Under the pieces are notes generated by a model. The model was given only the letters and a program-made list of their open reading frames with translations. It made no database searches and had not been told where the DNA came from. A program made the position numbers and the translations under genes. From Candidatus Nitrosopelagicus sp. (lineage in GTDB: Archaea; Thermoproteota; Nitrososphaeria; Nitrososphaerales; Nitrosopumilaceae), in the NCBI GenBank assembly GCA_028345295.1, contig JAOMDA010000004.1, forward strand, positions 1 through 64,000: DNA of 64,000 bases, in the 5' to 3' direction. Shown one piece after another: positions 27,993 to 64,000 of this stretch. How positions within the stretch are numbered: position 1 is the stretch's first letter; the number at the start of each line of letters is the position of its first letter.

Positions 27993-28937
27993 TTAAAGAT
28001 TTCCAGAATTAATGTCATTTAGACATTGAATAACATCTTCTTTTGAAATTGGTATTGGATTTGGATCTAGATGTCCTTTATCGGTCATAACAATATCTGC
28101 TGCCTCACTTACATCAGCTTTGAGTTCCATCTTGTCAAATCCTAATTTCTCAATTACTTCTTTGAATCTATCATAGAATATTGATTTGTTATGTTTATGT
28201 GCTACAGTAGTACAAGATGACAATGAAAATCCATGAGGAACTCCCTCATTTGAAAATACATATGATAATGCATGTCCTAACGTAGTAGAGCAGTTACCAA
28301 ATCCCATTCCAGATAACATTGAACCATATGGATAATTTTCTGGTTTATCATTAATTATTGCATCATAAAGTACATCAAATGCTTGTTTGCATAATGTTCT
28401 TGTTAGATTGTTTCCAAGTTTACTATCATATCCTTCTGTTGCTTGTGCGCATGCATCACAAACAGAATTTTTAAGAATTTGTTCTGGGGTTCCATTCATA
28501 AAGTAAGAGTCAATAACTGCTCTATCTGCAAGGAATCTGTCTTCTCGCAGTAATTTCTTTTTTCCATCAAACTTAAGTACACAATACGTCGTCATTTCAG
28601 CCCCTGTACCAAACGTTGTTGGAATTAAAATTTTTTCTACTCCAAATTCTGATGCAGAGTATTTTACAACATCAAGTGAACTTCCACCACCAAGACCAAT
28701 TAATACAGATGGTTTTTTTTCTTTATATTCAGATATTAGAGCATTAACATCATCAATTGATGGTTCTGGTGTAACTTTATCGAATAACATGTAATCTTGA
28801 ATTCCCATTTTATCCAGCCATTTATCAGATAGTGCTGGAGGAGCAGTTGTTACTACTAATGCATTTTTTGGGTATTCAGCTTCTGATAGTGCATTTTCAC
28901 CAAATTCAATCTTTTTTGGAAGTAACACTTTATCCAT
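27993..28937 (-). CDS. Iron-type alcohol dehydrogenase family enzyme; candidate malonic semialdehyde reductase
   Basis: A 314-residue member of the Fe-ADH / dehydroquinate synthase-like superfamily. The nucleotide-binding GLGGGSS is at 81-87 and the PTTFGTGAEMT block at 106-115. Metal ligands align as D161, H222 (GHALSY) and H235 (GVPHGF), but the usual second ligand His is Gln at 165 (DACAQATE). In Nitrosopumilus an enzyme of this superfamily reduces malonic semialdehyde in the 3-hydroxypropionate/4-hydroxybutyrate cycle; this gene is a plausible counterpart, by family only. A polyol or G1P dehydrogenase activity is an alternative. Confidence 0.75.
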   Translation of the reverse strand: MDKVLLPKKIEFGENALSEAEYPKNALVVTTAPPALSDKWLDKMGIQDYMLFDKVTPEPSIDDVNALISEYKEKKPSVLIGLGGGSSLDVVKYSASEFGVEKILIPTTFGTGAEMTTYCVLKFDGKKKLLREDRFLADRAVIDSYFMNGTPEQILKNSVCDACAQATEGYDSKLGNNLTRTLCKQAFDVLYDAIINDKPENYPYGSMLSGMGFGNCSTTLGHALSYVFSNEGVPHGFSLSSCTTVAHKHNKSIFYDRFKEVIEKLGFDKMELKADVSEAADIVMTDKGHLDPNPIPISKEDVIQCLNDINSGNL

Positions 28938-61580: not shown

Positions 61581-62339
61581 ATGATTGATTTTCTTTGGTT
61601 AATACCACTTGGATTTGCTGCTGGGGTTTTAGGCTCAATAATTGGTCTTGGGGGTGGAATTATTGCTGTACCTGTGATGACTTTTGCAGGGTTCCCACCA
61701 ACATTGGCTGCAAGTAATAGTTTGTTTGCTGCGTTTAGTAATGCAGTTGCATCTACTGCCACGTATGCAAAGCAAAAAAGGATTGAGTATGGAATTGGTT
61801 TAAGATTAGGATTAATGTGTATTCCAGGAACAATTCTTGGCGCATTTGTTTCTGATATAATGACACCTGTTGTATTTCAAATTCTTTTTGCATTAATTTT
61901 AGTCTCTTCTGCAGTCTATATTTTTGTAAAAAGAAAGATTTCAGAAAAGCCATACAATTTAAAAAATTCAATGATGGTTTTTGCAGCATCTGCAAGTTTT
62001 TTTGCAGGTGTAATTTCAAGTTTATTTGGAATTGGAGGTGGTGTAGTCTTTGTTCCATTAATGGTAATTGGAATTGGAATTTCAATGAGAAAAGCTGCAC
62101 CGACATCACAACTTGTTCTAATATTTGCATCGTTAAGTGGATTAATTGTTCATTCTCTATTAGGACATCCTGATTTTACACAAGCTATGCTGTTATCAAT
62201 TGGAGCATTTGCAGGTGGCTTACTGGGCGCAAGATTATCATTAGATATCAAGGAAATAAAATTGAAAATTCTTGTTACGATTGTCTTGATTGCTGCAGCA
62301 ATTAAGTTAGTTATAGATTCGATGGGGGTTCCTTTTTAA
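61581..62339 (+). CDS. TauE/SafE family membrane permease
   Basis: 252 residues with seven to eight membrane helices in two similar halves, each beginning with a GSIIGLGGGIIAVP-type loop (about 14-27, and SSLFGIGGGVVFVP near 147-160). Members export sulfite, sulfonates or related anions. Here it follows the SIMPL gene by 21 nt and may share its transcript. It overlaps the end of the convergent MaoC-like gene by 29 nt. Confidence 0.85.
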   Translation: MIDFLWLIPLGFAAGVLGSIIGLGGGIIAVPVMTFAGFPPTLAASNSLFAAFSNAVASTATYAKQKRIEYGIGLRLGLMCIPGTILGAFVSDIMTPVVFQILFALILVSSAVYIFVKRKISEKPYNLKNSMMVFAASASFFAGVISSLFGIGGGVVFVPLMVIGIGISMRKAAPTSQLVLIFASLSGLIVHSLLGHPDFTQAMLLSIGAFAGGLLGARLSLDIKEIKLKILVTIVLIAAAIKLVIDSMGVPF

Positions 62340-62772
62340 TCCTGTAAAGGTTCTTCTTAGATGTTACAATAACTTCCCCATCTCCATTTGTTCCTTCAAA
62401 GTCTACACCAATTAACCCAAATTCTTCATCAAGATCTTTTTTTTCAGATACTGTAAATTTGATTTTAAGAACTTGATCTGTGTATAATGCTTTTAGGAAT
62501 CTGGTTTGTCTACCATCCCATTCTTTGTCACCATCAATACCATATAGTATGATTAAATTTCCATAGATTTGTCGTAATCTGGTAAATTCACCTTCCATAC
62601 GAGAAATCATTGCTCGACCAGAAATAACTTTAGGTTCTTTTTTACCAGTGTTGATTTCAAACATTGCGTTTTTTATTCGTGAAAATCCTAGATAATCATC
62701 TAGCTCATCAGATGATATAGTAGTTGTTGATTGGAATTGATCACCAATTTTTAGCGAGGAAAATTTTTCCAT
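62311..62772 (-). CDS. MaoC-like hot-dog fold protein
   Basis: 153 residues. The N-terminal SLKIGDQFQSTTTISSDELD and the later GRAMISRMEGEF helix follow the MaoC/hydratase layout. The catalytic D-x4-H of active (R)-hydratases is not evident (SRIKNAMFE where it should be), and the usual HG is SG. It may be a degenerate dehydratase or a thioester-binding partner. It starts 2 nt after the stop of the tandem SDR gene, so the two are co-transcribed. Confidence 0.65.
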   Translation of the reverse strand: MEKFSSLKIGDQFQSTTTISSDELDDYLGFSRIKNAMFEINTGKKEPKVISGRAMISRMEGEFTRLRQIYGNLIILYGIDGDKEWDGRQTRFLKALYTDQVLKIKFTVSEKKDLDEEFGLIGVDFEGTNGDGEVIVTSKKNLYRIKKEPPSNL

Positions 62773-62774
62773 CT

Positions 62775-64000
62775 TTATCTTGATTCGTCAGGGCAAAATA
62801 TTACTTCAGAACTTGCACCTGCTTCCTTTGTTACCAAGTAATTTATTGTATCTATGAGATTTTCATTACTAGGTTCTTTTCCATCAACAGTTCCTGGTAA
62901 AACTACAAACATTCTGACATTTGATTTTAGGACGTCGCTTAGTTCTTGGTTAACTGTAGTTGCAAATGGTCTTAATGCACCTCTGAAAACTTCGGATTTT
63001 GCTCTTGCATGACCACCAACTTTCTTTCCAGCAGGAAGGGCTGGACCAACAATTACAATTCTTCCATAAGACTCTTTGAATAATCTTGGGTCATCAGAAC
63101 CACCTGGAACAAAAGTTTCCATTGCATTTTGGGATATTTGAGCTGGTGTATTGATGAATTTATTAACTAAACCATCCCATTCGTTTCTAGTTAATTCAGT
63201 TAATTTAGAAAATTCGGGAACATCTCCTGTTATATGAACAAATAGTGTATTAGATTCATTTCCATTATCAACAACTTTTGCTCCTCGTTCTTCTAACATT
63301 GATTTTAATTCAGTTGCTTTTTGTAATGCATCGTTAGAATCATTATTTGTGATGACACATGTAATTCCCTCAAAATTATTTTTTTCAGTTTTAGGAACAG
63401 ATGCTCTAATATGTGATTTAACAGGATAGAAAACTCTGTCACCCGGTATTATCTTTCCATTAAGAATTTTTGATTGCTCATCATCAACAAGAGTTAGAAC
63501 TGTTGTGGCAACTTGATCTTGTGATAAAAATTGTTGGTCTGGTATCATTGTGGATGTATTTTTTTGAATTTTTTCAGCAATACTTTGAACTTTATTTAGT
63601 AGATTAGTAAGTGCACTTTCTTGCTTGCCTAATTTTTCAGCAGCAGATTTTATTCCATCTTTGATAGTTTGTTCATCTTCTCCCAATAACCCTACAATCT
63701 CTTTATTTGCGACTTCAACTTCACTTGGTGAGAGTCCTTCAAATCCACTTACTCTAAGAAACTCAGATGCCGCTTTTGGATAAACGGTTTTATAAATTCT
63801 ATCTGAATGAACAGGACCAGGGTTGGTACCAATCGAAACAATTCCCTTTTCTGTAAGTTCCCATGACATTGCCTCGACAAGTCTATTCTTAGCTCCTTGT
63901 GATGCTGTATATGGACCTCTGAATCTATACGGTCTTTGTTCAAGTGGTCTTTCTTCAGCAAAGAATGTAGAAATTGTAATAATTTTTCCACCTTCCTTCA
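62775..64000 (-). CDS. Tandem short-chain dehydrogenase, malonyl-CoA-reductase-like (5' end outside window)
   Basis: The frame is open through the right edge, giving 407 visible residues; ATG 63869 is internal. The visible part holds the end of a first SDR domain (KIITISTF, YTASQGAKNRLVEAMSWEL, NPGPVHSDRIYKT), a helical insert of about 90 residues, a bridge QDQVATTVLTLVDDEQ, and a second Rossmann/SDR-like domain (TCVITNNDSNDA..., GRIVIVGP, HARAKSEVFRGALRPF). This order recalls one half of the Chloroflexus bifunctional malonyl-CoA reductase. The first domain's YxxxK Lys is Gln (Y-T-A-S-Q). It is followed at once by a MaoC-like gene. A carbon-fixation or fatty-acyl role is possible but unproven. 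Confidence 0.75.
   Translation of the reverse strand, partial: KEGGKIITISTFFAEERPLEQRPYRFRGPYTASQGAKNRLVEAMSWELTEKGIVSIGTNPGPVHSDRIYKTVYPKAASEFLRVSGFEGLSPSEVEVANKEIVGLLGEDEQTIKDGIKSAAEKLGKQESALTNLLNKVQSIAEKIQKNTSTMIPDQQFLSQDQVATTVLTLVDDEQSKILNGKIIPGDRVFYPVKSHIRASVPKTEKNNFEGITCVITNNDSNDALQKATELKSMLEERGAKVVDNGNESNTLFVHITGDVPEFSKLTELTRNEWDGLVNKFINTPAQISQNAMETFVPGGSDDPRLFKESYGRIVIVGPALPAGKKVGGHARAKSEVFRGALRPFATTVNQELSDVLKSNVRMFVVLPGTVDGKEPSNENLIDTINYLVTKEAGASSEVIFCPDESR

Follow-up and report, generated by a model that had tools for sequence, protein, structure and literature searches.

A tandem short-chain dehydrogenase/reductase of ammonia-oxidising archaea is a half-size relative of Chloroflexus-type malonyl-CoA reductase and a candidate for the missing reduction step of their carbon-fixation cycle

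Ammonia-oxidising archaea are among the ocean's most abundant microbes, and a large share of dark-ocean carbon is fixed by their cycle. In a stretch of 64,000 nucleotides from a Candidatus Nitrosopelagicus contig (JAOMDA010000004.1; hereafter the window), we found a minus-strand gene for a protein with two tandem short-chain dehydrogenase/reductase (SDR) domains that resembles one half of the Chloroflexus-type malonyl-CoA reductase (MCR). Its description as a half-size archaeal relative of this enzyme, in which a helical insert lies between a predicted catalytic SDR domain and a structural one, is well supported by the modelled structures. The likeliest single reading of its function is that of a malonyl-CoA reductase, perhaps also acting on succinyl-CoA, which we consider a little more probable than improbable; our confidence was held at this level because the catalytic tetrad is altered and we infer the function. 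The protein is the best available candidate for this long-missing CO2-fixation step.

The initial annotation had stated that malonyl-CoA reduction in the thaumarchaeal cycle lacks a settled enzyme, and the literature agreed: MCR activity was reported in Nitrosopumilus extracts, with the gene listed as unidentified (PMC6038301; PMC4510362; PMC6964070). Acryloyl-CoA reductase is a further cycle enzyme listed in this way (PMC6038301), and a marker list of 2026 gives no MCR gene for the Nitrosopumilus-type cycle (PMC12894919). The succinyl-CoA reductase gene of the cycle is also listed as unknown, and KEGG's use of Nmar_1608 for it was judged an error (PMC4510362). No proposal of the tandem-SDR gene as MCR was found in the literature searched, outside which lay most subscription papers, such as Koenneke 2014. 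The curated models of Pfam and NCBIfam named the protein as a generic SDR only.

The AlphaFold2 model of the window protein, which was built from a 47-row orthologue alignment, showed a mean predicted local distance difference test score of 90.9 and a predicted template modelling (TM) score of 0.90. The model bore out the layout described initially, namely an SDR end with the segment PGPVHSDRI, a helical insert, a bridge and a second SDR domain with a HARAK sequence; a short bridge joined the helices of residues 203-307 to the second SDR domain, and HARAK was located in helix 466-493 of that domain. The model of a 591-residue orthologue from a single-contig genome, likewise with a score of about 91, revealed the same domain layout.

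Foldseek was used to identify structures in the PDB with similarity to these two models. The MCR halves occupied ranks 1-24 for the long model and 1-25 for the window model, aligned over the full length, with best E values of 2.7e-26 and 2.3e-25, respectively. The TM score to the MCR halves was about 0.70 on the query and 0.78 on the chain of the MCR N-terminal half (MCR-N; 8hi6), at an identity of 15-19% in the fold alignments. The first non-MCR match of the long model was a tandem SDR (2et6) that superposed badly (TM 0.56, root mean square deviation 18.5), and single SDRs appeared from an E value of 1.6e-14, where one domain was covered with a TM score of about 0.37 on the query. The predicted resemblance to MCR is thus far above generic SDR similarity, and the initial likening to half an MCR, which had been made to depend on a structural match beyond the common SDR fold, held for both models, since each matched MCR full-length and ahead of all other PDB entries.

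Profile comparisons with hhalign over the whole chain gave P values of 5e-24 over 438 columns for MCR-N and 3e-24 over 492 columns for the C-terminal half (MCR-C), the signal coming mostly from domain 1. The part following the PGP segment, taken alone, matched MCR-N with a P value of 7.6e-5 and MCR-C with 1.3e-3, and the corresponding parts of the two MCR halves matched each other about as weakly (1.1e-3). Single-sequence searches of the PDB by domain did not separate MCR from ordinary SDRs (59.8 vs 68.3 bits).

Trees of domain 1 were computed with 22 mixed and then with 23 archaeal ordinary SDRs; they were unrooted, with long branches and limited outgroups. Both placed the orthologues, MCR-N and MCR-C together on one side of a branch that separated them from the ordinary SDRs, with supports of 98/92 and 99/96. 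Reciprocally, whole genomes that had been reached via MCR loci were queried with a long orthologue. All four of the MCR-bearing bacterial genomes searched gave MCR as the best match, out of 19 to 33 candidate places per genome. The MCR sequences for comparison were drawn from genome contigs, as plasmid sequences gave generic SDRs only. Homology of the archaeal protein to one MCR half is therefore well supported, and we regard it as very probable.

The active site revealed further common features. The motif YXXRXXY was present in 56 of 57 orthologues, the remaining one being a C-terminal fragment, in all 34 MCR halves and in none of 45 ordinary SDRs. Its residues Y161, R164 and Y167, together with those of PGPVHSDR204, were invariant among 47 orthologues, and G102, F150, Y161, R164, P199 and R204 were common to the orthologues and both MCR halves and untypical of ordinary SDRs. 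In total, approximately 100 columns were invariant over the 47 orthologues, most densely at the cofactor and substrate pocket, including TGxGTGIG, GRR and NNAG. The cofactor/CoA segment PGPxxxxR was present, and the loop preceding YXXRXXY was similar in length to that of MCR-C. In the Roseiflexus MCR, YXXRXXY holds the malonyl carboxylate, the Tyr743-Arg746 pair protonates the CoA thiolate, and mutation of Arg785 reduces activity (PMC10470521). An equivalence of Arg219 with MCR Arg799, suggested by spacing, is not claimed.

The distribution of the gene was surveyed in 300 genomes of the class, comprising 69 genera, at an E value of at most 1e-30, and genus lists were compared by eye. The gene was present in 215 genomes. 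By genus, its occurrence coincided fully with that of archaeal amoA, both being present in 34 genera and neither in the remaining 35; a few incomplete genomes contained one of the two genes and not the other. The source genome (1.07 Mb, 24 contigs, 92% complete) contains amoA. Among 398 Thermoproteota genomes, tandem-SDR matches were found in families of ammonia oxidisers only. An enzyme of the ammonia oxidisers' cycle would be expected to show such an amoA-like distribution. Together with YXXRXXY, PGPxxSxR, the two trees and the best matches in MCR-bearing genomes, it supports the initial proposal of the gene as a putative MCR.

Other reductase families were compared across genomes. Proteins of PF02774, which we take to be the family of the Sulfolobales enzyme, numbered two per genome in all genomes tested, in ammonia oxidisers and non-oxidisers alike. 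PF00171 aldehyde dehydrogenases were absent from four ammonia oxidisers, namely the source genome, the single-contig genomes G046 and G089, and G124; 4-hydroxybutyryl-CoA dehydratase family proteins were present in the source genome, G046 and G089. The tandem-SDR protein itself contains neither a PF02774 nor a PF00171 domain. Iron alcohol dehydrogenases of about the size of Nmar_1110 were found in most ammonia-oxidising archaea examined, and the step after malonyl-CoA reduction is therefore probably covered in most of them, so that the missing piece would be a monofunctional malonyl-CoA reductase. On the contig of the window, a 314-residue iron alcohol dehydrogenase (PF00465), of the family of the characterised malonic semialdehyde reductase Nmar_1110, is encoded at 27993-28937 on the minus strand. 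Two ammonia-oxidiser genomes of one family (G067 and G137, family f2) kept the tandem SDR and contained no iron alcohol dehydrogenase of Nmar_1110 size, comparable to Nitrosocaldus cavascurensis, as described below.

A mechanism can be suggested from the solved bacterial MCR enzymes. NADPH would be gripped by the GRR motif, Ser202 and Arg204 and would transfer hydride to the thioester carbonyl, while the free carboxylate of the substrate would be held by Tyr161, Arg164 and Tyr167. The Tyr161-Arg164 pair would protonate the leaving CoA thiolate, and the aldehyde would be stabilised by Thr148 and Tyr167. The replacements of the proton-relay Lys by Gln and of Asn by His would disfavour a second, alcohol-forming step, and a separate enzyme, which in most of these archaea would be the iron alcohol dehydrogenase, would reduce the semialdehyde.

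Several observations weigh against malonyl-CoA reduction as the function. The Ser/Thr-Tyr-Lys triad is incomplete: Thr148 and Tyr167 are retained, whereas Gln171 takes the place of the Lys. The initial annotation had cautioned about this replacement, and the caution was stronger than stated, as the Gln is invariant in all orthologues of the 47-row alignment and is accompanied by His122 at the position of the tetrad Asn. In MCR, the tetrad Lys helps to bind the cofactor and to relay protons when the alcohol is formed. Mutation of Lys753 in the thioester-reducing half of the Roseiflexus enzyme abolished activity (PMC10470521). The altered tetrad is the strongest argument against a simple transfer of function. 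In addition, the second domain matched ordinary SDRs better (8e-18) than the second domains of MCR, and its kinship with the latter is accordingly drawn from fold and not from sequence. Other cycle genes did not cluster with the tandem-SDR gene in the neighbourhoods of the sampled genomes, and the co-occurrence with amoA would fit any function specific to ammonia-oxidising archaea. The altered tetrad, the lack of clustering and a distribution that tracks amoA and not the cycle specifically would also suit an SDR of MCR descent, specific to ammonia oxidisers, that works outside the cycle on a different acyl-CoA or a keto acid. We consider such a role unlikely, given that YXXRXXY and R204, which in MCR bind malonyl and cofactor groups, are invariant.

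The archaeal clade also lay beside MCR-N, the semialdehyde-reducing half, in the SDR domain tree, at a weak support of 94/79, and Thr148 and Ser202 are MCR-N-like. These features would agree with an MCR-N-like reductase of malonic and/or succinic semialdehyde, with the hydroxy acid as product, as would the case of Nitrosocaldus cavascurensis, which is without an iron alcohol dehydrogenase and for which several SDRs with approximately 30% identity to the Chloroflexus enzyme Caur_2614, none of them named, were proposed as malonic semialdehyde reductases (Abby et al. 2018, PMC5797428). However, the tandem-SDR gene is kept by all, although most already have an iron alcohol dehydrogenase of the Nmar_1110 family, the lost Lys is the one required for the alcohol-forming proton relay, and the long helical insert and longer active-site loop are not found in MCR-N; this role also appears rather unlikely. 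A catalytically dead SDR with a structural or regulatory role, to which the replacement of two of four tetrad residues could point, is highly unlikely in view of the invariant columns concentrated at the pocket. Equally improbable is a role as acryloyl-CoA reductase, modelled on the FabI-type enoyl reductases: that enzyme of the cycle is likewise sought and Tyr167 and the invariant Lys174 are spaced Y-x6-K, but in what we take to be the FabI register of this Lys the analogy was ruled out by the position relative to PGP, where Gln171 and not Lys174 occupies the classical Lys position, no enoyl reductase was among the fold matches listed, and acryloyl-CoA does not need a carboxylate-binding Tyr-Arg-Tyr.

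Coordinates of the features are presented below. The open reading frame is real and open at the window edge, and the window holds the 3' three-quarters of the gene; the whole gene, as called for initially, was recovered from the adjoining sequence. Most orthologues are near 580-600 residues in length, and the shorter domain 2 was found in the window gene and four close congeners. In these proteins, the second Rossmann domain is up to approximately 46 residues short of that in other orthologues, some of them from the same genus. That the domain carries this deletion and is still confidently predicted to fold suggests that it may be purely structural.

Features of the tandem-SDR gene and its neighbour (window positions)
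Feature	Position	Strand	Remarks
Tandem-SDR gene	62775..64000	-	5' end outside the window at contig position 64409; 544 residues whole
Predicted catalytic SDR domain, residues 138-202 of about 1-202	63804..64000	-	AlphaFold2 model; PF00106, E 3.7e-35; remainder outside the window
YXXRXXY motif Y161-R164-Y167 (YRFRGPY), malonyl-binding motif in MCR	63909..63929	-	
Gln171 at the SDR catalytic Lys position, invariant in orthologues	63897..63899	-	
PGPVHSDRIY, residues 197-206	63792..63821	-	R204 corresponds to Roseiflexus MCR Arg785 (Chloroflexus Arg773) and MCR-N Arg215
Helical insert, residues 203-307, at the position of the MCR-C extra domain	63489..63803	-	AlphaFold2 model and profile alignment
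Second SDR/Rossmann domain, residues about 348-544, with ~46-residue internal deletion vs most orthologues	62778..63368	-	
MaoC-like (hot-dog) gene, 153 residues, 2 nt downstream of the tandem-SDR gene	62311..62772	-	

The initial annotation had placed a MaoC-like gene next to the tandem-SDR gene. The adjacency was confirmed, and the two genes are probably co-transcribed; the family assignment was weak, consisting of one profile match (1q6w, E = 5.5e-4) with no Pfam match. The MaoC-like gene directly follows the tandem-SDR gene in most sampled genomes of the Nitrosopumilaceae-type family of the window. As several other ammonia oxidisers are without it, it is not an essential partner. The hot-dog protein has a conserved core (SGRA...EGEFTRL...YGN...GxDGD) that belongs to no named family. 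Upstream in the window's family lie genes that, named by eye, are fructose bisphosphatase-like, DNA ligase-like and PhoU-like. At locus L002, outside the window, the region about 9 kb upstream of the tandem-SDR gene encodes a 3-hydroxyacyl-CoA dehydrogenase (PF02737/PF00725; L002:15150-16292), to whose family the cycle enzyme Nmar_1028 belongs.

If the protein is a malonyl-CoA reductase, its gene would be a marker for the thaumarchaeal-type cycle, and the enzyme might be a case of thioester reduction by an SDR that has no catalytic Lys. A broader proposal, which we hold tentatively and with somewhat less than even confidence, is that all ammonia-oxidising archaea make malonic semialdehyde by this half-size relative of the Chloroflexus enzyme with a rewired tetrad (His-Thr-Tyr-Gln); this enzyme lineage would then be common to the thaumarchaeal cycle and the 3-hydroxypropionate bi-cycle of bacteria, but not to the Sulfolobales cycle, and malonyl-CoA and succinyl-CoA may both be reduced by one promiscuous enzyme. 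With a universally conserved single candidate and a solved structural template, the gap at MCR becomes testable by ordinary enzymology.

Upon comparison with known systems, we found the bifunctional MCR of Chloroflexus and Roseiflexus (K14468; PDB 8hjw and 8hi4; C-half 8a30, 8j2b and 6k8s; N-half 8hi6 and 8aew) to be the closest. The tandem SDR half fold, YXXRXXY, PGPxxxxR and an Arg after strand 2, where NADPH would be bound, are common to both, and the archaeal protein contains a helical insert after PGP as in the MCR C-half, although with approximately 100 residues compared with about 170. At 544-600 residues, the archaeal protein does not contain the two fused halves of the bifunctional MCR (about 1220-1230 residues), and its tetrad differs in the Lys-to-Gln and Asn-to-His replacements. 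The malonyl-CoA/succinyl-CoA reductase of Sulfolobales (K15017), which presumably catalyses the same reaction in a parallel cycle, belongs to the unrelated aspartate-semialdehyde dehydrogenase family. Likewise unrelated to the tandem SDR is the malonic semialdehyde reductase of the Nmar_1110 type, an iron alcohol dehydrogenase that acts one step later in the cycle. The tandem (3R)-hydroxyacyl-CoA dehydrogenase of the fungal peroxisomal multifunctional enzyme type 2 (2et6) also contains two SDR domains per chain, but in a different domain arrangement.
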